From a virus: DNA of 28,932 nucleotides. Numbering within the stretch: position 1 is the stretch's first letter; each line of letters begins with the position of its first letter. The notes below the pieces were generated by a model that did no database searches, was not told the DNA's origin, and saw nothing but the letters and a program-made list of their open reading frames with translations. Location: positions 1 through 28,932 of the IMG/VR virus record IMGVR_UViG_3300037585_002651. One strand, given 5' to 3'. Positions 576 through 28,932 of the stretch are shown piece after piece. The translations under genes and the position numbers were made by a program.

Positions 576-2996
576 ATGGCATATTCTGGCATTAAAAGTT
601 ATTTTCCAAGTCAAACTGTAAGTGATGCTGAAAAGCTAAGCTATGAGTATGGTTTAAAAGTAGGTAAAGCTATAGAACAAGAGTGGTTTAATGAAGATAG
701 AAACCACAATAGACACAGATCTAATCATAGTGATTTTCATAATTTAAGATTGTATGCTAGAGGCGAACAATCTATACAAAAATATAAGGATGAGTTATCT
801 ATAAACGGTGATTTGTCCTATTTAAATTTAGACTGGAAACCAGTTCCAATTATTTCTAAGTTTGTAGATATAGTTGTAAATGGTATGACGGAAAGAATGT
901 ATGATATTAAAGCGTACTCTCAAGATCCATATGGTGTTTCTAAAAGAACTAAGTATATGGAGTCTATACTTGATGATATGAGAACAAAAGAATTAAATAC
1001 TTATACAGAACAAGCTTTTGGTATACGAGTTGCGGATAATGATCCAGAAACTTTACCTGATTCTGAAGAAGAATTACAGTTACACATGCAGCTTACATAC
1101 AAACAATCTGTTGAAATAGCAGAAGAACAAGCTATAAACACTTTATTAGACGGTAATAGATATGAATTAATAAAGAAAAGGTTTTATTATGATTTAGCTG
1201 TGCTTGGGATTGGAGCTGTTAAAACAGGTTTTAATACATCAGAAGGAGTTGTTGTTAATTATGTTGATCCAGCTAACTTAGTTTATTCTTACACTGAGTC
1301 ACCTTATTTTGAAGATATATATTATGTTGGTGAAGTTAAAACTATACCAGTAAACGAATTAGCAAAACAATTTCCTCATTTATCAGAAAGCGATCTTGAA
1401 GAAATAATGAAAAACAAATCTTACAATAGATCTAATTACAACTCAAGACATAACGAAGATAAAGAAGACAACAATACTATTCAAGTTTTATATTTTAACT
1501 ATAAAACTTACATGAATGAAGTTTATAAAGTAAAAGAAACTGCAACTGGTGCTGATAAAATTATAGAAAAAGATGATTCTTTTAATCCGCCTGAAGACAT
1601 GGAGGGAGGTTTTAAAAAAATGTTAAGATCTATAGAGTGTTTATACGAGGGTGTTTTAATACTTGGTACTAATAAATTAGTTAAATGGGAAATGTCAAAA
1701 AATATGATGCGTCCTAAAAGTGATTTTACTAAAGTTAAAATGAATTATTCTATTGTAGCACCTAGAATGTATAACGGTAAAATTGATTCATTAGTAAAAC
1801 GTATAACAGGTTTTGCTGACATGATACAACTTACACATTTAAAGTTGCAGCAAGTAATGTCGCGTATGGTTCCAGATGGTGTTTATTTAGATGCTGATGG
1901 TTTAGCTGAGGTTGATTTAGGTAATGGAACAAACTATAATCCGCAAGAAGCATTAAACATGTTTTTTCAAACTGGTTCTGTTATTGGTAGATCATTTACA
2001 AGTGATGGTGATCAAAACCCAGGTAAAGTGCCTATTCAAGAAATAACATCAGGTTCTGGTGGTAATAAAATGCAAGCTTTAATTGGTAATTACAATTACT
2101 ATTTACAAATGATAAGAGATGTAACCGGTCTTAATGAAGCTAGAGATGGTAGTATGCCTGATAAAAACGCTTTAGTTGGCGTGCAAAAGTTAGCTGCAGC
2201 AAATTCAAACACGGCAACAAGACATATATTACAAGCTGGATTATTTTTAACAGCTGAAACTTGCGAGTGTTTATCACTTAGAATATCTGACATATTAGAG
2301 TATTCACCAACTGCAGATGCTTTTTTACAAGCTATAGGTGGCCACAATTTAGCAACTCTTAACGAAATGTCCGACTTGTATCTTTATGATTTTGGTATAT
2401 TTTTAGAATTAATGCCAGATGAAGAAGAAAAAGCTGTGTTAGAGAACAACATACAAATGGCGCTGCAACAAAAAAGTATTGATCTTGAAGATGCTATTGA
2501 TGTTAGAGAAATTAGAAATGTAAAACTTGCAAACCAAGTCCTTAAAATTAGAAGAAAGAAAAAGCAACAAAGAGATCAAATGGTTCAACAGCAAAATATT
2601 CAAGCACAAGCACAAGCAAACGCACAAACACAACAAGTTGCTGCTCAAGCTGAAGTGCAAAAAAATCAAGCTATAACTCAAAACAATGCTCAGCTAGAGC
2701 AAATTAAAGCTGATTTAAAATCTAGACAAATGGAACTAGAAGTTGAGCATAAAATGAAACTAATGCAATTTGAGTTTGAAATAAATCAACAGCTACAAAA
2801 AATGAACATGGAGCAAGTTGACATGAAGGATACTATGAAGGAAGATCGAAAAGATAATCGATCAAAAATGCAAGCATCACAACAAAGTGAGCTTATAGAT
2901 CAAAGATTAAACAAGAAACCACCTAAAAACTTTGAGTCTTCAGGTAATGATATACTAGGAGGCGGTTTTGATTTAGGTTCGTTTAATCCTAGTTAA
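576..2996 (+). CDS. Portal protein
   Basis: An 806-residue protein directly after the terminase and before scaffold and capsid genes, which is the portal position. Portals form the twelve-subunit ring at one capsid vertex through which DNA enters and leaves. The N-terminal part (DWKPVPIISKFVDIVVNGM near residues 87-105) resembles the start of the portal core in large podovirus and crAss-like portals. A Gly-Thr-Asn/Gly-Ser rich stretch and RDVTGLNEARDG lie around residues 450-530. From about residue 660 the chain is a long Gln-rich coiled coil, with a run of QAQAQANAQTQQ, a likely barrel/crown extension into the head. Residues 770-806 are Gly/Pro/Asn-rich and likely disordered. The length is close to that of crAss-like portals. 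The start at 576 follows an A/T leader without Shine-Dalgarno. Confidence 0.85.
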   Translation: MAYSGIKSYFPSQTVSDAEKLSYEYGLKVGKAIEQEWFNEDRNHNRHRSNHSDFHNLRLYARGEQSIQKYKDELSINGDLSYLNLDWKPVPIISKFVDIVVNGMTERMYDIKAYSQDPYGVSKRTKYMESILDDMRTKELNTYTEQAFGIRVADNDPETLPDSEEELQLHMQLTYKQSVEIAEEQAINTLLDGNRYELIKKRFYYDLAVLGIGAVKTGFNTSEGVVVNYVDPANLVYSYTESPYFEDIYYVGEVKTIPVNELAKQFPHLSESDLEEIMKNKSYNRSNYNSRHNEDKEDNNTIQVLYFNYKTYMNEVYKVKETATGADKIIEKDDSFNPPEDMEGGFKKMLRSIECLYEGVLILGTNKLVKWEMSKNMMRPKSDFTKVKMNYSIVAPRMYNGKIDSLVKRITGFADMIQLTHLKLQQVMSRMVPDGVYLDADGLAEVDLGNGTNYNPQEALNMFFQTGSVIGRSFTSDGDQNPGKVPIQEITSGSGGNKMQALIGNYNYYLQMIRDVTGLNEARDGSMPDKNALVGVQKLAAANSNTATRHILQAGLFLTAETCECLSLRISDILEYSPTADAFLQAIGGHNLATLNEMSDLYLYDFGIFLELMPDEEEKAVLENNIQMALQQKSIDLEDAIDVREIRNVKLANQVLKIRRKKKQQRDQMVQQQNIQAQAQANAQTQQVAAQAEVQKNQAITQNNAQLEQIKADLKSRQMELEVEHKMKLMQFEFEINQQLQKMNMEQVDMKDTMKEDRKDNRSKMQASQQSELIDQRLNKKPPKNFESSGNDILGGGFDLGSFNPS

Positions 2997-12000: not shown

Positions 12001-15000
12001 GTTTGCTTCTATGGCAATGTTTTTTAGAAGATATGCTCGTGGAATAAGTGAAAATGCATCAAATTTTTCGGGAAGTGATTGGAATTGGACAAGCCCTTCT
12101 ATAGACAATGGAAAGTGGCCGCTTTTAGCACATTTAAAACTTGGAACAAATGGCGTCTCAGCGCCAGCAATATCAGGAGCTCTTGATCGAACGTATTTAA
12201 ATGAAGAGTGGACTCCTGCTGATAATTGGGCAAAAGAATGGGGTGGTAGTAATACTTCTCCAAGCGCTAATTTTCAAGGAGTAAACGCTGGTATGACTAA
12301 TAGTTTTTATTACGAAGATTTTGGCACAGGACCAACGTTCAACAGACACATATACGAAAAGCATACTCAAGAAACAACTGATCAAAATAGTAGAGATACT
12401 GAAGTTTGGTTTATAGATGGTAGTGATTTTGCCGGTGTTGGAAATTTAAGCGATGAAAATACTTTAAGTTGGAACCCTGCTCACTATGAGCATCAAAGAG
12501 AATATGGTACTGGAGTTGCAGTGCCTTTGTATACTGGACCTAACTCTGGACCTATGGGATCAGCAATTTATGGAGATAATTTATCGTTTACTAGTGATGA
12601 ATTAGCAGCAGGAGCTGGAAGCGCAGATGGAACTGCTCAAGGTTTTTATGATTTTTACACAAGAAGAAACCAAGGCATTGTAGGTAAAGGTAATGATACG
12701 CATGAAATGAATCTTTCTTTTGGTGGTATTATAGGCGCTACAAATGCTCAGCAAACTGATAATTTTTTTAACATTGGTAATTATGGTGTTGGTAGTGGGG
12801 CGTCATTAAATTCAAGGTATTCAGATTTAGAAAATTTTATTCAAAATTTTAATTCTGGTATTAAATTTAGATGGAAGCAAGATCCAACAGGTCAAGTTTA
12901 TACAATTGGAATTACTAGTTATCAAAACCAATTTAGACATAGTAGCGTTAGAACGCACGGTGATTGGTTAGGTCATCCTACACATCCAACAGGGGTTAAC
13001 TATGGGGTAACGGCAATGAATAATCCTAGTTGGGGGAGTATTGTTAGTCAAACTGTAAAACCTTCATACGTTACAGGACCTATACCAACAGAAGAACAAG
13101 TTTTAGGTGGTAATTCTATGGCTGAAAACTTATCTTTTAATTTTTCTAAAAAATATAAAATCTCTGATATATCACCAGATTATAATTCAAGTTCTTGGTA
13201 TCCTTTAACAGACGGAGAAATTACTAATGGTTACACAATACACTTAACTTGTTGCGACTCTTCTGGTAGTACCACTGGAACAGTTACAGCCGCGGGTACT
13301 ACAATAGCGCTAGATTTAGAAATATATGTTACTAGTTTAACTGGAGCTATTGGAAATCCACACGGTGACGCTTACGTTTCTTCAACTCTTTTAGTTGGCA
13401 TGGCTTTAGAGTCTTATACTTTAACAGGAACTACCGCGCTTACAACAGTCGCTAGTAATTTAGGCGGACAAGAGTTTTTAGTTATTAGAGATATTCAAAT
13501 TGAAACAAATACAACTACTAATGTTAGTTTTTATAAATTAATACTTGGTGGATATAGAAAAGCTTTAACAACTACAGACCACGCTTTAGCTATTACACCA
13601 TCTAAAAGACCTCAAGCTGGAGAATTATTTAAATTTGTACAAGTTGGTATGAATGGGTATAGTCCTAACTCTGAATTTAATATTAACACGATGGCTTTTG
13701 AAGAAGGAACTTTTGGGACTGTTGGTGCTGTTGGGTATGATTTAGAGTTTGTTGAGTTTATAGAGCCGGAAGAAGTTTTATCTGAAAATCCAGCTGTATG
13801 GGAAACAGAACCTAAAGATATAAAAGAACTAGATATATATTACGAAGCTAGTCCTAGCATACCAATGGTTATTGATGAAGAAACTATTGAAAGTGCTTTT
13901 CCTGTTAATTCATATTTTCAAAACCCTGCAAACTTATTGATGTATGCGGTTGACTATGATGGTAGTAATTTAATCATGAGTTCTAATCCACCACCTGCTA
14001 CTACTTACGCTGCTGCATTTAGTGGTGTAACTTTTCCGCTTTCAGTATCTGTGTTTAGACCAGATGGTATTACGTTTTATATTAGTATATTAAGTATTAC
14101 TGATATAGGAACTAATGCTCTTGTAGAATTTAATCCAAAGTTATATAATCTTAACTATGACTTAGACTGGCATAATTGTTATTCTTTTGGTAATGGAGTA
14201 GAATCAAATAGAATAAGAGATAATTTTAACTTACCTTTTATAACAAATGGAGTTAAAGTATCAACAACTTTAGAACATGAGTATAGAGAAGAGCATAGAA
14301 AATATGGATTAATATATTCTGGTATATATAATTCTACTTCTGGCGTAAACAATTTAAATCAATTTATACAAGCTGAAAAAATTACTAAAGATATAAATCC
14401 TATATACGGTAGTATTCAAAAGCTGAAAGCCGGATGGGGCCAAGGTGGTGATTTAGTAGCTCTTTGCGAAGATAGAGTATTGAAAATACTAGCAGATAAA
14501 GATGCTTTATTTAACGCAGATGGTAACACCAATGTAACGGCAACTAATAGAGTTTTGGGTCAGGCAGTTCCTTATTCTGGTGAGTATGGTATATCAACTA
14601 ATCCAGAGTCATTTGCATCGGAAGCTTATAGAGCATATTTTACCGATAAAGTTAGAGGTAAAGTAATGAGATTATCTATGGATGGTTTAACACCTATATC
14701 AGATGCTGGGATGAAAGATTGGTTTAAAGATAATTTAAAATTAGTTAATACAGCTATTGGTAGTTACGATGATAAAAAAGATCAATATAATTTAACTTTA
14801 GCTAATAAACCTGATGTTTACAATGTTACTTTTAAATCTACTTTAGGAGCTGTATACAATATAGCGCCATCTACGCCAACCCAACTTCAATTATCAGCTT
14901 CTCACACAGTAGGTTTTAAAGGAAACTTTACATCAAGCGCTCCAAACGGTTGTGCTGGTCCTTACGTAGCTAATAGATTATTTAGAGCAGAGCAAGGTAT

Positions 15001-17449
15001 TTTTAACGTTGGTGATGCTATTTCTGGTAGAGGTATTCCTATTGGTACAACTATTGTTTCTATTTTTCAAGACGTAACGCTAGCATATTATATTTATGAA
15101 TTAAGTCAAGATCCAATTGGCGTTTCTAGCGCACACGATCCTTATAGTTGCGAAGACGAAAGCTTGTCAGCATTAGCACGTCCTTTAGGTATACAAGGAG
15201 ATCAATGCGCTACATGTTGGGACGTTGTAGTATCTAAATCTACAACAAATGATCCAGTTAAAACAATTACATATAAAGAAGACGTGAGAGGATGGGTTAG
15301 TTTTAAATCATTTTTACCAGAACAAGCAATTAGTATGGCAAATGATTATTATACTTTTGATAAAGGTAGATTATGGAAACATCACGATGAAACTGTAGGT
15401 AGAAATACTTTTTACGGAATACACAGTGAAAAAGATTATTCTACTGTTAACGTTATAATTAATCAAGCACCTGGTACTGTTAAATCTTTTAATACGTTAA
15501 ACTACGAAGGTAGTAAATCAAGAGTTGTAGCAAATACACTAGATGATCAATACTATAACTTAGCAAGTAAAACTGGTTGGTATGTAGATTCAATATTTAC
15601 AAATAAAGAAACTGGAAGCTTAGAAGAATTTATAGAAAAAGAAGGTAAGTGGTTTAATTACATAAAAGGTAACCCGGCATTACATGGCAATAGTCAAGAG
15701 TGGGACGAAACAACTAATGCTAATATAATGATAAACCCAGATGGTGAGTCTTCTTGGGATCAAGCTAGCTTTGCGATACAAGGATTAGGCATGTACGGTA
15801 CTATGATACTTGGCTGCACGGATGCATTAGCAACTAATTATGATTCTAATGCCAACACTGATGACGGATCATGTTTATATCCAGCGGTACCCGTTTATGG
15901 ATGCATGGATTCAACAGCGTGTAACTATAATCCATTAGCAGACACTGCACAAACATGTGACTATACTTCATGCGCTGGTTGTTTAGATCCATTAGCAACT
16001 AATTATGATGCAGCCTTTACTATTAATAATCAATCGGCGTGTATATTCTGTGTTGATGGTTGTATGGATGCAACACAATTTAACTACAATGCTTTAGCAA
16101 CATGTGATGATGGTTCATGTATTCCATATTCATATGGGTGTACGGATCCAACCGCAGTTAATCAAGATATTTCAGCGAACACAGATGATGGTAGTTGTAT
16201 TTATCCATGCACGCCTGGTTGTAATGTTGGTGTTATAGCTGGTAATGACCAAAGTTTGTTTGGCCAACAGGTAAATTCTAATTACACAGGAAGTAACTGT
16301 GATTGTAATGGTGTTCCTAATGGAACAGATGATTCTTGTTGTACTCCTTGTATTTATGGATGCACAACTACAACAGCATCAAACTATGATATCGGAGCAA
16401 CATGTAACGATGGATCGTGTATACCATTAACATATGGATGTACAGATCCGAGCGCTGTAAACTATAACTTAACAGCAACTGCTGATGATGGTTCTTGTTT
16501 ATATCCAGGATGTATGGATGTGAATGCTAATAACTATGATTCAACTGCAACTTTTGATGATGGGTCATGTACTTACACAGCACCTGGATGTACGGATGTG
16601 AATGCAAACAACTATGATGCGTTAGCAACGAGTGATGATGGAAGTTGTACATATCCGCCCGCTTGGGCTTGTAGTACTCAAGGCTCTTGCAATGCGGATT
16701 TTCTTACTGCTAACTATAATCCTAATTATCAGGCAGGACCATGCGGATTGCAATTTGGTCTTGCAAGATTTCAAAGACCAGAGCCATCTTGTTCTACAGG
16801 CAGTATAAATAACAATAATGTTTCACCTTGTGCTGATTGGGACGGCGATGGAAATGTTGATCCTAATACTAACGGTAGAATTGTTAGTACAGTAGGTACT
16901 CCTGGGGTATACCCACCAGTAACTTCTGCTAGCGGTGTTACAAGTGTTAGCCCTATGGATTATTACCCAATGACAATCACTTTAACAGCTATGGATAATA
17001 CGCCATTGTTTAACGCTGGTGATCTTATTCCGCTCAATGGACCAGGATCAAGTACATCTTATACTATCCCTTCACCCGCGCAAACAAGTCAAACTACTTG
17101 GGATTTTACTTTACTAAATAATGGACCTAATAATATGTTTGGAAGAAGTGTTAATGGGTTAGCTTTTACTTTTAATTATCTTCCATCAATCCCTAGAGTT
17201 AAACTTGAGGTTTATTCTGCTAATGGATGTTCTGCAGAGTTTGTTTATCAAATGAATAGTGTAGGAGCTTTTGAAGTTGGTAAAAGCTGTAATCCAACGC
17301 CTACTGGAAACCAAGCAAATATAACGGCAACTGAAAATTATTTTACTAGCCCTCCTAATCAATTTGTTCCATCTGGACCTCAAGGTTGGCAAGCTCAACC
17401 CTGTGTAGATCTTGTTAATGGTTGGGATGGAACAGGCTACTGGATATAA
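9011..17449 (+). CDS. Giant tail-stabilisation (P22 gp10/muzzle-like) protein with Cys-rich C-terminal array (2812 aa)
   Basis: The start has GKMNKDLDERLVPKGQYRDA and NIQVSTSEGSEVGTVQNILG, which I associate with large beta-propeller tail proteins of short-tailed phages (P22 gp10-like stabilisation, crAss muzzle). Residues about 1770-1940 hold further propeller-like sequence (GSIQKLKAGWGQGGDLVALC, DKVRGKVMRLSMDGLTPISD). Residues about 2060-2250 contain GWVSFKSFLPEQ, YTFDKGRLWKHHDE, FNTLNYEGSKSRV and EEFIEKEGKWFNYIKG. Residues 2268-2549 are ten Cys-rich units. Next is a Ca-binding-like loop DWDGDGNVD (2609-2617), then a Cys-poor beta-rich end. A module pattern GIPIGTTIV (2008-2016) recalls the units in the preceding gene. 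It probably closes the tail and, through its C-terminal 540 residues, may touch the host surface. The N-terminal assignment is fair; the C-terminal role is inference. Confidence 0.7.
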   Translation: MPDIKNQFTGGKMNKDLDERLVPKGQYRDAMNIQVSTSEGSEVGTVQNILGNAQVSLLNGFTLPVESKTIGCVADEKNDALYYLVWSNDANYIIEYIRGNDFATPVFTDTKHVLEFNFDTSITGINIIDDMIFWTDNKTEPKKINIVRCKQGTIDFVQHTRLINESQNILLIDNVDIETKHITVIKKCPKTALKLNLKTAREIDKIYTGVITITNFNELNVIPENIHPFGGDLVPAANGNVINSLNYSSFVNVIYTQNAPINDRFDFDGLTTEDGSNEFSVKIMNGIDQLGNEVPLSKINEQGGLNGWHHASATYGGGPNSGDTNKTNIAIGTKVVLKPYDGVNPPGLPVTDYVIKGEITDRFPSFTKYGTSTNAILQPEFNTDDYAVDIKITAIDGTPPSVPDGETELKYVIDLFDDTEKLFEFKFPRFSYRYKYSDGEYSTFAPWTRVAFQPGPFDYHPRKGYNLGMTNRIQSVDLYGLVTPKTPEDVESIDILFKDEPSPSIYVVDTIRKDDVAIFGSVNKWDSILNGGVNSFYNIKKETINSIVPSNQLLRPWDNVPRKALAQDITGNRIVYANYIQNYDLKKDGNNFVPNFTVNFINDAYRVDLLTGWTKTSGADKSIKSLREYQLGVVFVDKYGRETPVISNESGTIKLEKEEADKYNRLQVNLGNVADGYPSSNENHLRYFKFYIKETSGEYYNMAMDRWYDAEDGNIWLAFPSSDRNKLDIDSFLILKKGSDESQLVKDPARYKVIAIENEAPDYIKTRKTLTAKVVHSFSSTNPGAFGNSISNGPAQGRNEIEINYKAFSQTSGLHLDEYTGGELYIEFGNAGGQFSDRYRISGIEHDNGRSINNTDSVDFDDAKYYITLADNLGSDVNFITDDPSGINSSLIENGTIVNIYKYEVANSPKFDGRFFVKIYSDDVFSSNIGKSFEEGLDFRVLNSKKVFYMHPEHRKMHTENHNYFLTKGEFSTLGDEVDEFLNDSALTAWGYYSVPEFASMAMFFRRYARGISENASNFSGSDWNWTSPSIDNGKWPLLAHLKLGTNGVSAPAISGALDRTYLNEEWTPADNWAKEWGGSNTSPSANFQGVNAGMTNSFYYEDFGTGPTFNRHIYEKHTQETTDQNSRDTEVWFIDGSDFAGVGNLSDENTLSWNPAHYEHQREYGTGVAVPLYTGPNSGPMGSAIYGDNLSFTSDELAAGAGSADGTAQGFYDFYTRRNQGIVGKGNDTHEMNLSFGGIIGATNAQQTDNFFNIGNYGVGSGASLNSRYSDLENFIQNFNSGIKFRWKQDPTGQVYTIGITSYQNQFRHSSVRTHGDWLGHPTHPTGVNYGVTAMNNPSWGSIVSQTVKPSYVTGPIPTEEQVLGGNSMAENLSFNFSKKYKISDISPDYNSSSWYPLTDGEITNGYTIHLTCCDSSGSTTGTVTAAGTTIALDLEIYVTSLTGAIGNPHGDAYVSSTLLVGMALESYTLTGTTALTTVASNLGGQEFLVIRDIQIETNTTTNVSFYKLILGGYRKALTTTDHALAITPSKRPQAGELFKFVQVGMNGYSPNSEFNINTMAFEEGTFGTVGAVGYDLEFVEFIEPEEVLSENPAVWETEPKDIKELDIYYEASPSIPMVIDEETIESAFPVNSYFQNPANLLMYAVDYDGSNLIMSSNPPPATTYAAAFSGVTFPLSVSVFRPDGITFYISILSITDIGTNALVEFNPKLYNLNYDLDWHNCYSFGNGVESNRIRDNFNLPFITNGVKVSTTLEHEYREEHRKYGLIYSGIYNSTSGVNNLNQFIQAEKITKDINPIYGSIQKLKAGWGQGGDLVALCEDRVLKILADKDALFNADGNTNVTATNRVLGQAVPYSGEYGISTNPESFASEAYRAYFTDKVRGKVMRLSMDGLTPISDAGMKDWFKDNLKLVNTAIGSYDDKKDQYNLTLANKPDVYNVTFKSTLGAVYNIAPSTPTQLQLSASHTVGFKGNFTSSAPNGCAGPYVANRLFRAEQGIFNVGDAISGRGIPIGTTIVSIFQDVTLAYYIYELSQDPIGVSSAHDPYSCEDESLSALARPLGIQGDQCATCWDVVVSKSTTNDPVKTITYKEDVRGWVSFKSFLPEQAISMANDYYTFDKGRLWKHHDETVGRNTFYGIHSEKDYSTVNVIINQAPGTVKSFNTLNYEGSKSRVVANTLDDQYYNLASKTGWYVDSIFTNKETGSLEEFIEKEGKWFNYIKGNPALHGNSQEWDETTNANIMINPDGESSWDQASFAIQGLGMYGTMILGCTDALATNYDSNANTDDGSCLYPAVPVYGCMDSTACNYNPLADTAQTCDYTSCAGCLDPLATNYDAAFTINNQSACIFCVDGCMDATQFNYNALATCDDGSCIPYSYGCTDPTAVNQDISANTDDGSCIYPCTPGCNVGVIAGNDQSLFGQQVNSNYTGSNCDCNGVPNGTDDSCCTPCIYGCTTTTASNYDIGATCNDGSCIPLTYGCTDPSAVNYNLTATADDGSCLYPGCMDVNANNYDSTATFDDGSCTYTAPGCTDVNANNYDALATSDDGSCTYPPAWACSTQGSCNADFLTANYNPNYQAGPCGLQFGLARFQRPEPSCSTGSINNNNVSPCADWDGDGNVDPNTNGRIVSTVGTPGVYPPVTSASGVTSVSPMDYYPMTITLTAMDNTPLFNAGDLIPLNGPGSSTSYTIPSPAQTSQTTWDFTLLNNGPNNMFGRSVNGLAFTFNYLPSIPRVKLEVYSANGCSAEFVYQMNSVGAFEVGKSCNPTPTGNQANITATENYFTSPPNQFVPSGPQGWQAQPCVDLVNGWDGTGYWI
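15812..16660 (+). repeat. Tandem array of ten Cys-rich GC-[TM]-D...DDGSC units
   Basis: About 24-47 residues per unit, encoded residues 2268-2549 of the 2812-residue tail protein. The consensus is G-C-[TM]-D-x-x-A-x-N-Y-[DN]-x-x-A-x-x-D-D-G-S-C. Units 1, 4, 5, 7, 8, 9 and 10 keep [DN]DGSC. Units 2 and 3 vary at this site (AQTC, NQSAC). Unit 6 is longer and divergent (NVGVIAGNDQ..., DSCC). Units 9 and 10 are the most alike (D-V-N-A-N-N-Y-D). The paired Cys suggest one disulfide per unit and the Asp cluster suggests Ca binding; both are inferred. I know such repeats from secreted proteins of marine Bacteroidota. Confidence 0.9.
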
Positions 17450-20011: not shown

Positions 20012-20803
20012 ATGGCAACAGGTAGAATAGTAAGCCCCGCAAAATTTTTAGGAAAAGTTGTGGGCGGAATAATGAACGTTGTGCAAGGAAACAAAGCTGG
20101 TAAAGACGCGGCAGAACAACAAAGGATAGCTAGAGCAGAATTAGAAAAACAAAAATCAGCTTATGGCGACTTAGATACTAGTAATTTAGCGGCTGGTGTT
20201 CAAAACGCTTATGGTAATATACAAACAAATTTTGAAAATGTATATGAAGATTTAACGGTTAACCAACAACAAGCTCAATTCCAAGCTGAACAAGGAGCTC
20301 AACAAAGAGCTAACATAATGCAAAACTTACAAGGCGCTGCTGGTGGTTCTGGTATAGCTGGTTTAGCACAAGCTATGGCTAATCAAGGTCAACTAGCAGC
20401 TCAACAAGCATCGGCTTCTATTGGTCAACAAGAAGCGGCTAATCAAAGAGCAATGGCTCAGGGCGCTGCTAATGTACAGGCTATGGAAGCTACTGCTGAA
20501 AAACAAGTTGCGTTAGGAGCTCAACAAGCTGAAACAACTAGATTACAAGGAGCTAAAGATGCTAGAGGATTAGAGTATGATAAAACAACAAATTTACTTG
20601 GTATGGCATCTGGAGATTTACAAGCAGCAAACGCTGCTAAAGCTGCTGCCGACGCGCAAAAAGCATCTGGTGTTTCTGGTATTGTTGGTGGTATTGGCGG
20701 TGGCGTAATGGCTGGGTTATCAGGCGGGTTGTTTGGTGATGGTGCAGCAAATTTTATGAAAAATAATTTTGATTTTTCTAAAAAAGCAGGAGGTAATGCA
20801 TAA
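20012..20803 (+). CDS. Ala/Gln-rich internal virion (ejection) protein (263 aa)
   Basis: The chain starts with an amphipathic, partly hydrophobic helix (SPAKFLGKVVGGIMNVVQGN, residues 8-27). A long helical Ala/Gln-rich body follows (AEQQRIARAELEKQKSAYGD; QQQAQFQAEQGAQQRANIMQ; ANQRAMAQGAANVQAMEATA) with a Gly-rich GAAGGSGIAGL hinge near residue 110. Near the end is a hydrophobic Gly-rich stretch (GIVGGIGGGVMAGLSGGLFG, residues 224-243) that could insert into membrane. This layout recalls small ejection proteins of podoviruses such as T7 gp14 or crAss cargo proteins, which leave the particle before the DNA and help form a channel. Two larger proteins of probable internal type follow at once, as in an ejection cassette. 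The resemblance is of composition and context, not of a verified homologue. Confidence 0.5.
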   Translation: MATGRIVSPAKFLGKVVGGIMNVVQGNKAGKDAAEQQRIARAELEKQKSAYGDLDTSNLAAGVQNAYGNIQTNFENVYEDLTVNQQQAQFQAEQGAQQRANIMQNLQGAAGGSGIAGLAQAMANQGQLAAQQASASIGQQEAANQRAMAQGAANVQAMEATAEKQVALGAQQAETTRLQGAKDARGLEYDKTTNLLGMASGDLQAANAAKAAADAQKASGVSGIVGGIGGGVMAGLSGGLFGDGAANFMKNNFDFSKKAGGNA

Positions 20804-20814
20804 AAATAAATAAT

Positions 20815-21864
20815 ATGGCAAAAAAACAAAGTTCCACAACGTTATTTGAAAGAGCAGGGTTTGCTTCAGGAGCGTCTAAATTAAAAATGCAACATCATGA
20901 CTATGTTAAGTCTCTTGGTGATTCTTTAGATTTTAGTATGAAGAAAAGCGAAGAAGATAAAGATAAGCCAAAGCAAGAGTCAACGCAAGATCCTGAAACA
21001 GTGGAGTATGTATTGGCGAAGAAAAATGAAATAGCAAACTTAATGAAAATAGAAGAGGGTAAAAAAAACCCTGATGGTATACCTTACACACGGCGACAGG
21101 TAGCTGAGGCTAGCGCAAAAATAGATGAAATAAACAAAGGTATAGTTAACTTTAGACAAGGCATAGCTGACGCTGATAATGCAAGGTTAAATGCAAACGC
21201 AAGGCTGTTTACTACAAATCAAAATGGAGTATCAGTTACTAATCCAAATGGTATAAGTGGTGGTATGACTAAAGAACAACAAAAAAATTTAGTTGATTTT
21301 GAACGTGGTGAGCTTCCTAAACGATTAAATGAACAAACTAATCAATATGAATATTTAGATTATACCACTGGAGTTATGGATAATTTTGGAAAAGTAAAAT
21401 ATCAATACAAGCCTTATAACGAAGTAAGCATGGGCTCCCCAACAAATCCAGAGTTTGCAAACGCAATAGCAGCTAACTCAATAAATATTTTTGAGATAGC
21501 GCAAAGAAGAAGTGTTAAAAATGATCCTACTGAATGGTCAAGAATTTACAAGCCACAAATGTTATTAGGTATAAAGCAAATGTTAAAACAAAACCCTGGT
21601 GATGCTAAAAACTTAATTTTTACACCTGAGTTTGAGCCTGTTTTAGATAATTTAATATTTGAAGGTTATTTTAATGATCAAACAGAAGATATAGATGGTA
21701 TAACTAATTTTGAAGAATATAAAAATAGTGATGCTTATCAAACAGCGGTAAATCAAATTAAAAACATGAAGTTAGATAATAATTTTTTTCTAGAAGAATA
21801 CGAGTTAATGATAGACAGAGAATTTAACGCAACTCAACCTATTGCAAAACCAAAGCCAGAATAA
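20815..21864 (+). CDS. Probable internal virion protein (349 aa)
   Basis: The N-terminus is basic and polar (MAKKQSSTTLFERAGFASGA), then highly charged helices (SMKKSEEDKDKPKQESTQD; residues about 70-125 AKKNEIANLMKIEEGKKNPD and AEASAKIDEINKGIVNFRQG). The central part has GGMTKEQQKNLVDFERGELP, YEYLDYTTGVMDNFGKVKYQ and a helical C-terminal half (EWSRIYKPQMLLGIKQMLKQ, residues 240-259) ending in a Pro/Lys tail. No membrane segment, enzyme motif or signal peptide is seen. It lies 11 bp after the Ala/Gln-rich protein and 4 bp before the giant protein, so the three form one unit. I infer that it is an internal or ejected virion component comparable in place to T7 gp15, without sequence proof. Confidence 0.45.
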   Translation: MAKKQSSTTLFERAGFASGASKLKMQHHDYVKSLGDSLDFSMKKSEEDKDKPKQESTQDPETVEYVLAKKNEIANLMKIEEGKKNPDGIPYTRRQVAEASAKIDEINKGIVNFRQGIADADNARLNANARLFTTNQNGVSVTNPNGISGGMTKEQQKNLVDFERGELPKRLNEQTNQYEYLDYTTGVMDNFGKVKYQYKPYNEVSMGSPTNPEFANAIAANSINIFEIAQRRSVKNDPTEWSRIYKPQMLLGIKQMLKQNPGDAKNLIFTPEFEPVLDNLIFEGYFNDQTEDIDGITNFEEYKNSDAYQTAVNQIKNMKLDNNFFLEEYELMIDREFNATQPIAKPKPE

Positions 21865-21868
21865 AAAT

Positions 21869-24800
21869 ATGCCAGATTACTTAAATAAAAACGGTGAAAC
21901 TTACACCGAAGAAGAGCTTATTAAATACGCAGAAGAAGATAACTTAAGCTTTGAAGAATACATGAAAACTAAATCTTTTGAAATTGTTGGCGGAGAAGAA
22001 ATTCCTGAAACATCAGAAGTAACAACTCCTGAAGTATCGGGAGACCAAACTCCGACGGATACCACGGAGAAGGTAGAAAATATGGTATCCACTGGGGAAG
22101 AAAGTTCTACGGATACACCAGTAATAAAGCCTGACCAAGTAATAGAACAAGGAGGTTATGAGTATAAGTTTGGATTTGGTGATGATGATAAACCAATATA
22201 TTACACTAAAAAGAAAGATGATTCTAATTGGTCAGTTGTAAGCCCTGATTTAGATGAAAATAATTTTATAACAAACCCAGCATATGTAAGCATAGGTCAA
22301 GAGTTTAATCATTTTAAAGGTGAAGATTTTGATAGAGAGGCTTATTTTAAACAACAAGCCGAAGCAACAGAAATATCTCCAAAGCAGCCTGAAATAGGCG
22401 CTTGGCAAAGTTTTAAAAATAATATCTATAATACTTTTGAAATGGTTGGCGATCTCCCTGAGTATTATTTTAGCGATGAAGGTGCTGGTAGTAGTTTTGA
22501 TATTGCTGCTACGCTTTTATATGAAACTGCTTTTGGTAAAGATAAAATTGAAGAATGGAGATCAAGTGATTTTGGTAAATGGTTTTTTGGTGGATACGAA
22601 GGCAGTGGGACTAAAGAATTTGAAAAATCTATTGAATCATTTGAAAAAGAAAAAGAAGGTTTAAAAAGAACTATGACTTTTAAAGAGGCAGATAGTTTTA
22701 CTGATTATTTATCTGTTGTTTCTGGGTCTATAGCTCAAGTTGGTGGTTCTGTTATTTATAATTTAGGTACTGGTGGTACTGGGTTTTTTATGGATTTTGC
22801 TTCTGAAAACTTTATAACTGCTAATGAAGAAAAGGCAAAAGCAAGTAACACTACTGTAAGTGAAATATTAAAATCTGGAGATCAAGATGTAGAAGCGCCT
22901 CTTAAAATAGCCGCTTTTCAAGCTGGATTAGAATACTTTGGTTTTAGTAAAATAATAGGTAAAACAGGTGTTGGAAAAAAACTAAATAAAAAAGTTGGAG
23001 AATACCTAACTAAAAACTATAAAAAAAGCAAAAACATAAGAACTGGTTTAGATATATTAGGAACTGGTAGGGTAGAATCTTTTACGGAAATGGGCCAAAC
23101 AGGTTTAGAAATATACAACGAGGAACTAGCTGTTGCGAAAGGAAAAGGTGAAGAAATAAATGACTTAATGTCAATAGCAAACGGTATGTTTAGTGAGCGA
23201 GGCATAGAGTCTGGTTTACAAGGTTTTTTTGGAGCTACTGGACTTAAAGCAGGTAGTTATTCAGCTAAAGCTTTAAATAATATTAGAAAATCTAATAAAG
23301 ATTTAGACGTAGAGCCTGAGTTAAGTAAACTAGCTGAAATAACAAAAAGAAAAAATTCTACTAAAGATAAAGATTTAATAGCTGCTTTTGACACTCAAAT
23401 TAATGAATTACAAGAATCAATAAAAAGTAAAATTAAAAATGGTAACGATATCTATGAAAAACTTTCTAATAAAGATATAAAAACAATAGAAGATTTAAAC
23501 GAGTTAGCTAATGTTACTGCTTTTAGAGCTAATAATTTAATAGAAAAGTTTCAAAAAGGTGAAATATCTAAAGAAGATTTTAACGCTGCTATAGATGGTC
23601 TTGGTAACAAATACAAAGATAATAAACAAGGTATACAAGATATAGTTAATAAAGCTAGAGCTAAAGAAGTAACAGAAACAGTTAGAAAACAAGTTGGTAA
23701 AATAGCAGAAGCACAAGGAGTTGAAGGTGTTGTTACAGAGGCAAATACTCAAGAAATAATTGATGCGCAAGGAGAAAAGTTAGCTATAATAAACGCGGAA
23801 AAAGATATTAATCAGCAAGTTTTAAATAATCCTGATGTTAGCGCTGAGCAAAAACAAATTGCAGAAGAAAATATAAAAAGTTTTGATCAACAAATAAATG
23901 ATATTGAAAACGCTGATTCTAGCTTTGGTTACATTGATGAAAAAGTTGATAATGAAGGTAATTTAACTGGTGATTTTGAGATAATAATCAACAAAGATAA
24001 ACCAATGCTTGGAACAGCTGCTCATGAGTTTTTACATAAAGTATTGTTTAAAACACTTAAAGGTAATCAAAAGTTACAAGATAATGTTGGCGATGCTGTT
24101 ACTGATTATGTTACTGGTAAATTTGGTGGAGTATCACCTGCTTTTATAAACAGGATGAGTGCTTATATAAATCCAAAAACCGGAGAACAAGTTAGTGAAT
24201 TTGGAGAAGAAATTATTACTGTAATGTCTGAATCCATATTAGATGGTAGTTTAGAATTTAAAGAAAACTTTTTCACTAAAATAGGAGATATTGTTAGACA
24301 AAACTTACAAAAATATGGTTTAAAATCTATTCAATTTAACACCGGTAGAGATGTTTATAATTTCATCAAAGACTTTAACAAAAGTATAGAAAAAAATTAC
24401 ACAAGTAAAGCTATAACAAAAGCCGCTGTTGAAGGCGTAAAAGGTAAATTAGTTGAAAGTAAAGAAAAAACTAAACCTACAGCTAAAAGAAAAATGTCTA
24501 AGGTTAGTCCAAAAGCAAAAACTTTTTTAGAGGAGAAAGATGACGATGGAAAGTTGATGTATACAAACGAAATGTTAGTTGACATAATAAACAATAAACG
24601 TTCTAAAGAAGATGATAGGTTTGGTGCTATTGAAGCTTTAATTGAAAAGAACTGGCCTGTAATTAGTAAAGGTTTGAAGTTTAATCCGAGCGGTGATATT
24701 ACAATGGAATCTATAAAGACGGCTATATCCGAGCAAATGACCGGTATATTTCCTAAAATTACACTACCAAATGGTCAAACTATAAATCGTGAAGGTAAGC

Positions 24801-27800
24801 GTTTACTAGATACGTATAATAAAGAACAAAAAGTAACAACGTTTTTAGACGCTACTTTAAGAAATAGACAAGCTGAAATATTTACTAGAGCTAAAACAAT
24901 AGATGCAAAAAGCCAAGGCGTAAGCTTAGATGAAGCTAAAAACATTGCTGTTTCAACTGAATTAGAAAATGAAACATCAAATCAAATAGATACTAGAAAA
25001 AGAATAAATGTTTTAAAAATACCTAAAGTTGCTAGAGTTGCAAAAGAAATAAGACAAGACACTAAAGTTGTAGAAGGAGACACTCACAAGCAGGTTACTA
25101 AAAACAACGAAGGTAGTGTAGGTAAAAAAATATTTAACATACCTGAAAATAAAATAACAAAACCAAATGAAAACTTAACAACATCGGATGAAATTGTTAG
25201 TATTGAAACTGGAGAAGTTATTACAAAAGAAGAATTAGACGCTGGTGCAACTGGTATATTATCACCATCAGAATCTAAAAGCGTGCAAGATGTTTTTGCT
25301 GATTATGAAACTTCAGAGCAATTTATTAAGATATTACCAAAAACAAATGTTAGCGAAAAAGATGCTTTAATAAACGAAATAGGAGAAAATATTCCAGTTT
25401 CTAGAAATGTTTATGGTAGAGCTATAGGCTTGCAAGATAGAATACTAGAGTATTTTTACGAGCCATTGTTTAAGCCAAATGGTAAAAGAGCTAGATCACA
25501 AGGTAAAACTTCACAAGTGCCATTGTGGACATTAAAAGAGCAATTTATTAATCCTAAAAAAGACGTTGTAGTTCAGTTTCAAAGAGACTTAGGTATTACA
25601 GAGCAACAACAAATAAATATACTTCCTACTAAAGAAAAAAGATCTGAAATAGGTCAGTTATTAAAAGGCGCTGCTAGAACGCTTAGTCAGCAAGTGTCAT
25701 TGTCTGCTGCTCAAAGAATACTAGAAGCAAGAGGAGCATCACCGCAACAAATAGCAGATGTTACAGCTGGACAAAGAAAAAGAGCTTATAGTAAAGCTAA
25801 AAAACTTCAAGAATATGCTGATTTAAAGAAAGTGTTTACAGGACCATTAGCACCAACATCTGAAATACTTGCAGAAATAGAAGAAAAAACTGGCAAAGTA
25901 AAAGTTAAAGTTATAACTAGAAGAGATTTAGAGCAATACCAAGATGAAAAAAACAAAATAATTTGGGAAGAGTTTTATATGAACCAAATATTAGATTTTC
26001 TTAACGAATTTCCTCAGTATTATGAAGTTATGTCAACCGGTTTAACTGGTGGTATAAAAAAAGCCGCATTTTTTAACATACCTTATTTTAGAAAAGCTAT
26101 TAAAAAATACGCTGAAAAAAGTGGTAGAAAAAATATTATAGAAAAAATAGACAGTGCGAAGCAAGTAAAGCCATCAAGAACTTATTATCACGCGGGAAGT
26201 ATATTTAAAGGTGTAAAAAATATTAATTTTTCTAATGAAAAGGGTAAAATAGAATTTTTAGAACAATTTTTTAGAGACATTGCTAAGCATGGTAAAGGAG
26301 AAGAAATTTTTCAAGAACTATTAACTCATCTTGGTTTTGACCAAAGTAACTTTATGAGACATGCGGGTGTGCTTCTTGCTTTCCCTGTTAAGAGCAAAGG
26401 TAAAAACAAAGGCAAAGAAGTAACTAGCGAAATAGGTGTGGAAGAACACGATCCACAAATGGAAATGGCTAGAATTTTATTTGCCGCAGCCCGTGATGGA
26501 AATATAGAAGACGCTATTAAGCTTTTAAGATTTGGTTACTCACAAAGCTCTTTAAGAAAAAAAGATGATCCAGGTGGTAATCTTAGAAAGTCTAGAGGTA
26601 AAGATTTTTTTGAAAAAGTAGTTCCTAGAGTTTTAAACAATCAATTAGACTTTTTACCTGACGGTTTTGGTGCTATATATAGATTTATGAAAGCAGGAGT
26701 AAATCCTAATGCTTACGCTTTAATAAAAGAAAATCAAACAATAGCAGAATATTTTGGTGTTGATAATTTAAACGTTGGAAAAGCTCGACAGGCTATAATT
26801 GATGTTTTTGAAGGTAATCAAGATATAAATGCTTTACGTGAACAATCAAAAGTTAAATATAGTAAAGATATAGATAGTAACAACAAGTTAAATAAAGCCA
26901 TAACTGTAGCTAGAAAAAGCTCAAAAGATCCAAAAGGTATTACTGTTTTAGATTTTGACGATACATTAGCTACAACTAAATCTTTGGTTAAATTTACAAC
27001 TCCAAATGGCGATACTGGAACTTTAAATGCTGAAGAGTATGCTAATACATATGAAGACTTGCAAAACCAAGGTTATACGTTTGACTTTTCAGATTTTAAC
27101 AAAGTTGTAAAAGGTAAGTTAGCACCATTGTTTCAAAAAGCGTTGAAGCTACAAAAGAAATTTGGTCCTGAAAACATGTTTGTATTAACAGCTAGACCAC
27201 CTCAAGCTGCTAAAGCTATATTTGATTTCTTAAAAGCTAATGGTTTAAATATACCAATGAAAAATATTACTGGCTTAGCTAATTCTACAGCTGAAGCAAA
27301 AGCTCTTTGGATAGCAGATAAAGTTGGTGAAGGTTATAATGATTTTTATTTTGCTGATGATGCTTTACAAAATGTACAAGCTGTAGATAACATGTTAGAA
27401 CAATTTGATGTTAAGCGTAAAGTACAACAAGCTAAAATTAAATTTAGTAAAGATATGAATACTGATTTTAATAATATATTAGAAGAAGTAACTGGTATTC
27501 AATCTATTAAAAGATTTGCAGCTACTAAAGCTAGAAAACGTGGCGCTGATAAAGGTAAGTTTAGATTTTTTATACCACCATCGCATGAAGATTTTGTAGG
27601 TTTACTATATAACTTTATGGGCAAAGGTAGGCAAGGTGATAGGCATAGAAACTTTTTTGAACAATCTTTAATTAGACCTTTGAATAGAGCTAATAGAGAA
27701 TATGATACAGCTAGACAGTCTATAGCTAATGATTACAAAGCTTTAAACAAACAGTTTCCAGATATTAGAAAAAAGCTTACAAAGAAAACTCCAGATGGTG

Positions 27801-28932
27801 ATTTTACTTTTCAAGACGCGATAAGAGTTTACCTATGGAACAAACATGATCACAATATACCTGGTTTAAGCGAGATAGATCAAGCTAATTTATCAGAGTT
27901 GGTAATGGCAGATGCTAGTCTACAAGCTTACGCTGAAACATTAAACGTAATATCTAAGCAAGATGAATATATAAATCCTACTGATGGTTGGGAGTCTGGA
28001 GATATTAGAGTTGATCTAGATGATGCTACAGGAAGAGTTGGTAGAGATCAATATTTTGATGAGTTTAACGAAAACGCTGATATAGTGTTTTCTGAAGAAA
28101 ACTTAAATAAAATTGAGGCTGGTTTTGGTAACGGTGTTAGAGAAGCATTTGAAGATATGCTGTATAGAATTAAAACTGGTAGAAACAGACCTACTGGACA
28201 AAACAGAATAGTAAATGGGTTTATGAACTACTTAAACGGTTCTGTTGGTACAGTCATGTTCTTTAATATGAGATCTGCTTTATTACAGCAAATGTCTTTA
28301 GTAAACTACATAAACTTTGCTGATAATAATATATTTGCAGCCGCTAAAGCTTTTGCTAATCAAAAACAATATTGGAAAGATTTTGCATTTATATTTAACT
28401 CTGACATGCTAAAACAAAGAAGAGGTGGTATACAGACTGATGTTAATGGTGCAGAGCTCGCTGAAAGTCTTCGTAACTCAAAAAATCCTACTAGAAAATT
28501 AATATCAAAATTACTAGAACTTGGATTTTTACCTACTCAAATTGGTGATAATATTGCAATTGCAACTGGTGGCTCTCCTTATTATAGAAATAGAATAAAC
28601 ACGTATTTAAAACAAGGTTTAAATCAAAAAGAAGCAGAAGCTAAAGCTTTTACAGATTTTCAAAACTTAACACAATCAACTCAGCAGTCAGCAAGACCCG
28701 ATATGGTTTCGCAACAACAAGCATCTGTTATTGGTAAGGTTATATTAAACTTTCAAAATGTAACATCTCAGTTTAATAGATTAGGTAAAAAAGCTTTTCA
28801 AGATATATACAATAGAAGAATAACACAGCCTAACACTACTCAAATGCAAAGTGATATATCTAATGCTGCTAGGATAACATACTACTTTGCTGTGCAAAAC
28901 GCTATATTCTACACATTACAAACAGCTTTATT
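21869..28932 (+). CDS. Giant polyvalent internal virion protein with metallopeptidase and HAD phosphatase motifs (3' end outside window)
   Basis: Open from ATG 21869 to the window edge: 2354 residues and no stop. Residues 1-110 are acidic (starts MPDYLNKNGETYTEEELIKY). Hydrophobic Gly-rich stretches (SVVSGSIAQVGGSVIYNLGT near 284; GLQGFFGATGLKAGSY near 450) could touch membrane. Charged coiled coil spans roughly 480-690. HEFLH (719-723), with possible third ligands in SEFGEE (776-781), is a zinc-metallopeptidase signature. Residues about 1690-1840 hold a HAD set: DFDDT (1695-1699), TAR (1774-1776), Lys 1811 or 1818, FADD (1828-1831). C-terminal blocks include MFFNMRSALLQQMSLVNYIN and PTQIGDNIAIATGGSPYY. 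Such multi-enzyme chains fit large polyvalent proteins packaged and injected by phages. The HAD part may act on nucleotides or nucleic-acid ends; substrate unknown. Confidence 0.7.
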   Translation, partial: MPDYLNKNGETYTEEELIKYAEEDNLSFEEYMKTKSFEIVGGEEIPETSEVTTPEVSGDQTPTDTTEKVENMVSTGEESSTDTPVIKPDQVIEQGGYEYKFGFGDDDKPIYYTKKKDDSNWSVVSPDLDENNFITNPAYVSIGQEFNHFKGEDFDREAYFKQQAEATEISPKQPEIGAWQSFKNNIYNTFEMVGDLPEYYFSDEGAGSSFDIAATLLYETAFGKDKIEEWRSSDFGKWFFGGYEGSGTKEFEKSIESFEKEKEGLKRTMTFKEADSFTDYLSVVSGSIAQVGGSVIYNLGTGGTGFFMDFASENFITANEEKAKASNTTVSEILKSGDQDVEAPLKIAAFQAGLEYFGFSKIIGKTGVGKKLNKKVGEYLTKNYKKSKNIRTGLDILGTGRVESFTEMGQTGLEIYNEELAVAKGKGEEINDLMSIANGMFSERGIESGLQGFFGATGLKAGSYSAKALNNIRKSNKDLDVEPELSKLAEITKRKNSTKDKDLIAAFDTQINELQESIKSKIKNGNDIYEKLSNKDIKTIEDLNELANVTAFRANNLIEKFQKGEISKEDFNAAIDGLGNKYKDNKQGIQDIVNKARAKEVTETVRKQVGKIAEAQGVEGVVTEANTQEIIDAQGEKLAIINAEKDINQQVLNNPDVSAEQKQIAEENIKSFDQQINDIENADSSFGYIDEKVDNEGNLTGDFEIIINKDKPMLGTAAHEFLHKVLFKTLKGNQKLQDNVGDAVTDYVTGKFGGVSPAFINRMSAYINPKTGEQVSEFGEEIITVMSESILDGSLEFKENFFTKIGDIVRQNLQKYGLKSIQFNTGRDVYNFIKDFNKSIEKNYTSKAITKAAVEGVKGKLVESKEKTKPTAKRKMSKVSPKAKTFLEEKDDDGKLMYTNEMLVDIINNKRSKEDDRFGAIEALIEKNWPVISKGLKFNPSGDITMESIKTAISEQMTGIFPKITLPNGQTINREGKRLLDTYNKEQKVTTFLDATLRNRQAEIFTRAKTIDAKSQGVSLDEAKNIAVSTELENETSNQIDTRKRINVLKIPKVARVAKEIRQDTKVVEGDTHKQVTKNNEGSVGKKIFNIPENKITKPNENLTTSDEIVSIETGEVITKEELDAGATGILSPSESKSVQDVFADYETSEQFIKILPKTNVSEKDALINEIGENIPVSRNVYGRAIGLQDRILEYFYEPLFKPNGKRARSQGKTSQVPLWTLKEQFINPKKDVVVQFQRDLGITEQQQINILPTKEKRSEIGQLLKGAARTLSQQVSLSAAQRILEARGASPQQIADVTAGQRKRAYSKAKKLQEYADLKKVFTGPLAPTSEILAEIEEKTGKVKVKVITRRDLEQYQDEKNKIIWEEFYMNQILDFLNEFPQYYEVMSTGLTGGIKKAAFFNIPYFRKAIKKYAEKSGRKNIIEKIDSAKQVKPSRTYYHAGSIFKGVKNINFSNEKGKIEFLEQFFRDIAKHGKGEEIFQELLTHLGFDQSNFMRHAGVLLAFPVKSKGKNKGKEVTSEIGVEEHDPQMEMARILFAAARDGNIEDAIKLLRFGYSQSSLRKKDDPGGNLRKSRGKDFFEKVVPRVLNNQLDFLPDGFGAIYRFMKAGVNPNAYALIKENQTIAEYFGVDNLNVGKARQAIIDVFEGNQDINALREQSKVKYSKDIDSNNKLNKAITVARKSSKDPKGITVLDFDDTLATTKSLVKFTTPNGDTGTLNAEEYANTYEDLQNQGYTFDFSDFNKVVKGKLAPLFQKALKLQKKFGPENMFVLTARPPQAAKAIFDFLKANGLNIPMKNITGLANSTAEAKALWIADKVGEGYNDFYFADDALQNVQAVDNMLEQFDVKRKVQQAKIKFSKDMNTDFNNILEEVTGIQSIKRFAATKARKRGADKGKFRFFIPPSHEDFVGLLYNFMGKGRQGDRHRNFFEQSLIRPLNRANREYDTARQSIANDYKALNKQFPDIRKKLTKKTPDGDFTFQDAIRVYLWNKHDHNIPGLSEIDQANLSELVMADASLQAYAETLNVISKQDEYINPTDGWESGDIRVDLDDATGRVGRDQYFDEFNENADIVFSEENLNKIEAGFGNGVREAFEDMLYRIKTGRNRPTGQNRIVNGFMNYLNGSVGTVMFFNMRSALLQQMSLVNYINFADNNIFAAAKAFANQKQYWKDFAFIFNSDMLKQRRGGIQTDVNGAELAESLRNSKNPTRKLISKLLELGFLPTQIGDNIAIATGGSPYYRNRINTYLKQGLNQKEAEAKAFTDFQNLTQSTQQSARPDMVSQQQASVIGKVILNFQNVTSQFNRLGKKAFQDIYNRRITQPNTTQMQSDISNAARITYYFAVQNAIFYTLQTAL
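24023..24211 (+). other. Zinc-metallopeptidase motif region in the giant protein
   Basis: GTAAHEFLHKVLF gives HExxH at residues 719-723 (two zinc-binding His and catalytic Glu 720), preceded by small residues typical of the active-site helix. About 55 residues on, SEFGEEIITVMSE offers Glu 777, 780 or 781 as third ligand, as in gluzincin-like and polyvalent-protein peptidases. It may cleave the giant protein itself, other virion proteins or a host target. Confidence 0.65.
26951..27361 (+). other. HAD phosphatase motif set in the giant protein
   Basis: Motif I DFDDT: nucleophile Asp 1695 and acid/base Asp 1697. Motif II: Thr 1774 in VLTARPP. Motif III: Lys 1811 or 1818. Motif IV: Asp 1830 and 1831 in FYFADDALQNV. 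Order, hydrophobic context and spacing fit a compact HAD phosphatase. I recall the same DFDDTLATT and FADDALQNV wording in giant proteins of marine phages. All catalytic residues are present, so the domain looks active. Confidence 0.85.

Follow-up and report, generated by a model that had tools for sequence, protein, structure and literature searches.

A giant phage protein that joins a zincin-like metallopeptidase domain to a HAD phosphatase domain with an enzyme insertion site in its relatives

The window, by which we mean the whole stretch of DNA analysed here, is a linear virus contig of 28,932 bp from a marine phage that closes with the gene of a giant polyvalent-type protein (21869..28932, + strand). 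A single frame runs from the ATG at 21869 to the contig end over 2354 residues; because this open frame meets the end of the linear record, the gene is 3'-truncated, and judging from full-length relatives some 190-300 C-terminal residues are missing. Tails were read in three relatives and all three are Lys-rich at the end. The earlier note on this DNA had described one open frame of more than 2354 residues with an HEFLH motif and a full HAD set, which is confirmed in the sequence; the membrane-like segments that it also mentioned are not supported, since the highest hydropathy over 19-residue windows is 1.18, under the usual membrane-helix threshold, and membrane helices were rejected as weak. 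The intact window protein had no significant match in Pfam or PHROG scans, and tblastn against 50,697 phage records gave none for the whole protein, for one HAD (from relative L043) or for one ART insert; as these searches were empty, no isolate was found with the HAD/C-terminal protein.

The terminase, portal and structural genes of the window match phage head-and-packaging families. The portal protein (576..2996, +; phrog_6547, E 1.9e-147) places the phage among Bacteroidota podoviruses, with an identity to flavophage relatives of 54% (ctfjg026), 48% (Maribacter phage Panino), 40% (Elemovirus) and 35-28% (Callevirus, Baltivirus and Gundel). We take the host from the portal because a scan of genome contigs gave matches on MAG contigs only, many of them labelled Bacteroidota and some labelled with other taxa, possibly through mis-binning. 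Gene order agrees across the portal-related phages, where the giant gene ends the structural block; within the stretch of Gundel that was read, there is no giant gene at that place. The gene had been called the last of a cassette: it does close a large structural block, but in relatives further genes on the same strand lie 3' of it. Several small Lys-rich basic proteins are encoded 3' of the giant gene in relatives (L008:19925-20173, L010:19850-20329, L013:18378-18617); such proteins, for example MKKAPAKMKKAPMKM..., recall histone-H1-like DNA-binding proteins.

Upstream of the giant gene, a 2812-aa virion protein (9011-17449) has Cys-rich GC(M/T)D..A.NYD..A..DDGSC repeats arrayed at its C-terminus. 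A 263-aa Ala/Gln-rich protein (20012..20803, +) stands in the place of phi18:3 gp120, a protein detected by MS/MS, is locally, though weakly, similar to elemoA (E 8e-4) and to gp120 itself (E 0.009), and is a probable ejection protein. Directly 5' of the gp120-like ejection gene some relatives have, by eye, a GNAT-like gene of about 140 aa (L004:5354-5794, L010:4816-5217). The 349-aa protein encoded between the gp120-like and giant genes (20815..21864, +) is the counterpart of phi18:3 gp121 by gene order alone.

In phi18:3 the products gp114, gp115, gp120, gp121 and gp123 are annotated "experimental MS/MS proteomics", and it is gp123, of 1935 aa, that occupies the position of the giant gene, which corresponds by synteny to the final structural gene in Pachyviridae, Pervagoviridae and Elemovirus phages. 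No sequence homology of gp123 to the HAD, C-terminal core or zincin of the giant family was detectable. The HAD and C-terminal core profiles likewise found no match in phi18:3 gp123, phi38:1 gp101, elemoA, Panino or ctfjg026. Among these five phages the only clear domain sharer is the elemoA giant protein, which has the zincin (hmmsearch 2.7e-10 among five sequences, hhalign E 4.7e-7); the zincin profile had no match in phi18:3 and only a marginal one in ctfjg026. Because the Elemovirus giant alone clearly shares a domain, packaging is argued from position, and it is plausible that the giant protein is packaged in the virion and ejected with the DNA. The earlier proposal of injection is thus favoured by synteny with an MS/MS-annotated protein and weakened by that protein's lack of detectable homology.

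One viral scan yielded 167 relatives, 80 of which were retained, most of them full-length; a wider set comprises 252 distinct related giant proteins. Full-length members measure 2250-4318 aa and share a domain order: first an N-terminal part that varies greatly, next the zincin, then a stretch of about 950 residues, the HAD, and finally the C-terminal core, about 700 residues long. The HAD and the core are the best conserved parts in the aligned relatives. The core, which in the window extends from aa 1881 to the contig end (27509..28932, +) and is delimited by conservation, matched no Pfam or PHROG family and gave no useful PDB match by profile sequence search. At least two unrelated effector domains plus a zincin occur in one giant phage protein of this family, and domain architecture and conservation in about 230 relatives support the description of a giant polyvalent protein that joins a metallopeptidase to a HAD phosphatase. 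One 50-kb contig, IMGVR_UViG_3300025131_000066, holds two giant HAD-kinase genes that differ from each other, one on each strand (L115, L164).

The zincin-like metallopeptidase domain (aa ~690-880; 23936..24508, +) is defined by the conserved alignment A4 and by its homologous Elemovirus domain. Its predicted zinc-binding/catalytic motif HEFLH (aa 719-723; 24023..24037, +) is the sole HExxH in the window protein, where composition shuffles give 0.0075 HExxH per protein, and it is accompanied by a nearly invariant downstream Glu, E781 (24209..24211, +), the candidate third zinc ligand. H719, E720, H723 and E781 are each at least 90% conserved in A4, and HExxH is found in 67 of 70 aligned relatives, having been lost in L039, L056 and L059. 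The domain has no Pfam match and, by sequence, no PDB match.

The HAD phosphatase domain (aa 1684-1880; 26918..27508, +) is recognised from its motifs, profiles and predicted fold, and its set of conserved residues is complete: motif I DFDDT (26951..26965, +), with D1695 as predicted nucleophile, D1697 as predicted acid/base and T1699; motif II T1774-A-R1776 (27188..27196, +); motif III K1811 (27299..27301, +); and motif IV D1830-D1831 (27356..27361, +). This pattern, together with the flanking hydrophobic strands, arose in none of 2000 shuffles, and motifs I, II and IV are kept in 71/71 aligned sequences. When loss of catalytic residues in close homologues was looked for in the wider set, the full HAD set, including the Lys, was intact in 234/234 HAD-bearing proteins and HExxH was present in 219/231 proteins, so that the claim of two enzyme domains withstood this check.

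An AlphaFold model of the domain (pLDDT 84) has a HAD-like fold, and HAD structures are among its top PDB matches in Foldseek (probability 0.99-1.0, TM ~0.45). For the HAD alone these PDB matches are Lem4/Ceg4, effector phosphatases of Legionella, and not PNKP, and searches of PDB sequences with the HAD profile gave no useful match. The phage matches are of another kind: phrog_415, "polynucleotide kinase", matches the HAD in 35 of 43 members (best E 5e-8), and the named structure matches in BFVD include several phage polynucleotide kinases or PNKP phosphatase domains and one Swiss Army Knife RNA-repair HAD. A direct hhalign comparison of the HAD family with T4 PNK is weak (probability 27%) and limited to motif I and its vicinity. 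The best BFVD matches are unannotated deposited virus proteins, at most 86% identical, and the domain has therefore been sequenced before without a described function. BFVD also holds HAD structure matches in proteins named cytidyltransferase-like or deaminase (A0A6J5MBE6, A0A6J5KPZ7_2, A0A218MMM0_2), a hint that in other phages the domain has more enzymes as partners.

The hairpin after motif I, which we take to be the C1-cap site, lies at aa ~1712-1719 (27002..27025, +); from spacing and alignments it is empty in the window and an insert site in relatives. Motifs I and II are 77-81 residues apart in most members, the window protein included, and 121-146, 209 or 275-280 residues apart in others. 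The longest versions contain a complete P-loop kinase inside the hairpin, matched by Pfam AAA_33 (5.7e-17) and Zeta_toxin (2e-12), by phrog_505 polynucleotide kinase (2e-13) and, in hhalign, by the kinase of T4 PNK (7.6e-6); in profile searches of PDB sequences the kinase of C. thermocellum Pnkp comes top (1.2e-5). A model of the nested HAD-kinase unit (pLDDT 87) has T4 polynucleotide kinase as its best PDB match (E 4e-8, 364 alignment columns). Zeta toxins follow closely behind T4 PNK and Pnkp, and the kinase is about equally near to both groups. In kinase-bearing members Walker A and other kinase residues are invariant alongside those of the HAD.

By profile, the nested kinase is present in 44 distinct giant proteins and an ART-like insert in 12. 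Other inserts are a helical one of about 45 aa and a 184-aa insert of L220 with no assigned domain. Kinase and HAD share one chain in relatives such as L057, L072, L038 and L301, in the last of which they stand in tandem, while L122 and L254 have the kinase without HAD; the window protein, which has no insert, lacks this combination. Because kinase and HAD are found nested, in tandem or with the kinase alone, a functional coupling of the two is suggested. An ART-like match at aa 173-269 of L026 (E 3e-4), well towards the N-terminus and not within the HAD, suggests that ART can occupy slots other than the hairpin.

Frequencies were taken from a scan by the C-terminal core alone, which is blind to HAD and gave 67 evaluable proteins. 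HAD is present in 57 of these and absent from 10; the kinase is nested in 20 (30%), in tandem with HAD in 1 and without HAD in 1, and 9 proteins have neither. With 138 members on FastTree trees, 11 changes of kinase state are needed on the HAD tree and 17 on the core tree, against a shuffled mean of 27.5, and the 8 ART members need 7 changes; built on short alignments, such trees show scatter and not the number of events, and gain and loss are indistinguishable on them. From these change counts we conclude that inserts moved among giant proteins more than once, as HAD cassettes probably did too. Judged by the alignments, the relatives have a hot spot of domain insertion in the hairpin just behind motif I.

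Taking these observations together, the architecture is solid, while substrate and injection are what we infer from it. We see an even chance that Bacteroidota podoviruses have here a giant virion protein built of modules, of the polyvalent (ejected) type, with a HAD that acts as a PNKP/RNA-repair-like end phosphatase. The giant protein would be packaged beside the two smaller ejection proteins and leave with the DNA; its zincin would then cut its own chain, as proposed for polyvalent proteins (PMC5512222), or host proteins, and free the modules. The HAD would act on nucleic-acid ends by stripping their phosphates (3'-phosphate); where a kinase is nested in it, the HAD-kinase unit would also phosphorylate 5'-OH ends. 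In this way tRNA or phage DNA cut by host nucleases would be healed before any phage gene is expressed. The window protein would bring the phosphatase half alone.

End healing is suggested by the profile and structure matches, the coupling of kinase and phosphatase, the occurrence of an RNA-ligase domain in 5 of 26 long related records (3 above cut-off) and the known phage repair HADs, phage RNA repair being known to employ both PNK-fused and Swiss-army-knife HADs (PMC7824862). Several observations pull the other way: the HAD matches Lem4/Ceg4 in PDB and T4 PNK only weakly in hhalign, it can be absent altogether, the kinase has a zeta-like side, and phi18:3 gp123 shares the position but no detectable sequence. 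RNA ligase was not found in 21 of the 26 records, which may be incomplete, and was rejected as a constant partner, and the ART-like inserts fit poorly with a pure repair role. Of the two functions proposed earlier, terminus repair gains from the PNK-like domains that relatives have inside their HAD or adjacent to it; for an action against nucleotide-based defence we found no specific support.

A delivery scaffold for host-directed effectors is the strongest competing explanation, possible though on the unlikely side in our judgement. In that case the targets of HAD, zeta-like kinase and ART would not be nucleic-acid ends but metabolites or proteins of the host, such as phosphoproteins, the transcription machinery or cell-wall sugar nucleotides. 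The Zeta_toxin and zeta toxin structure matches of the kinase and the Legionella effector phosphatases that head the PDB matches of the HAD are consistent with this, as is the top Pfam match of the ART-like inserts, which in 4/4 is ART-PolyVal (PF18760; E 1e-4 to 0.04, below gathering score); zeta-like kinases and ARTs have also been reported in polyvalent proteins (PMC5512222). However, both the profile matches of the HAD and its viral structure matches speak for PNK/RNA-repair HADs, and no single PDB entry matches the nested unit better than T4 PNK. We consider it improbable that the protein is a structural or assembly component of the head or tail interior, with the zincin at work in virion maturation, the HAD in the late infection of the producing cell and no enzyme delivered. 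The place of the gene in the structural block, the presence of a syntenic protein in virions, the conservation of the C-terminal core alongside the HAD and the dispensability of the HAD would suit such a part, but the repeated exchange of unrelated enzyme domains is hard to explain if it is purely structural, and wherever there is a HAD its catalytic residues are intact. It is scarcely credible that the nested architectures arose as artefacts of assembly or by chance, and that the protein is an ordinary two-domain fusion: the relatives do come from metagenome contigs and no isolate encoding the HAD/C-terminal protein was found, yet the 44 nested-kinase and 12 ART-like giants are distinct, uninterrupted frames on many separate contigs, and both domains' catalytic residues are invariant where a kinase is present.

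Returning to the end-healing interpretation, we hypothesize, with the balance evenly poised, that the hairpin of this giant injected protein is a plug-in socket where whole enzymes, among them the polynucleotide-kinase-like kinase and the ADP-ribosyltransferase-like (ART-like) domain, have been inserted and exchanged repeatedly while the HAD stayed catalytically intact, one product being a virion-delivered end-healing enzyme with a kinase nested within a phosphatase. HAD caps are, to our knowledge, usually not enzymes, and we know of T4-type phage RNA repair otherwise only from proteins made after infection starts. If this hypothesis is right, marine Bacteroidota phages deliver an end-healing phosphatase, often with a kinase, at the first moments of infection, and such particle-borne repair enzymes would act against nuclease-based defences ahead of phage gene expression. 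The socket would be a natural record of enzyme swaps in one loop of a conserved phosphatase, and with an insert that is short, variable and at a fixed address, what phages inject would become directly testable.

Compared with known systems, phi18:3 gp123, phi38:1 gp101 and elemoA phanotate90 as last structural proteins of Pachyviridae, Pervagoviridae and Elemovirus phages, have the same gene position and size class, elemoA with a homologous zincin, and differ in that no HAD or C-terminal core was detected in any of the five phages compared. The N4 virion RNA polymerase (gp50) is the precedent for a giant ejected protein with two smaller ejection proteins (PMC12633501), and N4-like RNAPs fused to zincin domains have been described (PMC5512222); an N4-like vRNAP identity was rejected, as a Pfam scan of 15 family members gave no RNA polymerase domain. 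Swiss-army-knife RNA-repair phosphatases share the HAD fold, and one viral structure match bears that name, but they reportedly tend to be standalone proteins in jumbo phages (PMC7824862). With T4 polynucleotide kinase/3'-phosphatase (PseT) and PNKP the relatives, though not the window copy, share a P-loop kinase and a HAD in one chain; here the kinase sits within the HAD hairpin, whereas in T4 PNK it precedes the HAD, the HAD profile match is weak, and the unit belongs to a probable virion protein of ~2500-4000 aa. The polyvalent proteins of Iyer et al. 2017 (PMC5512222) likewise have a giant multidomain chain, a zincin, predicted injection and interchangeable effectors, among them zeta-like kinases and an ART-PolyVal-like domain. 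In the main text of that paper, word searches found none of "phosphatase", "haloacid", "polynucleotide kinase" or "PNKP", and our searches of the open-access literature, in titles, abstracts and a few passages, did not return any HAD in which the hairpin after motif I holds a nested enzyme. Polyvalent proteins as such are thus already known, while in the present family HAD is a near-constant module with other enzymes nested inside it, and the kinase-in-HAD architecture is possibly new.
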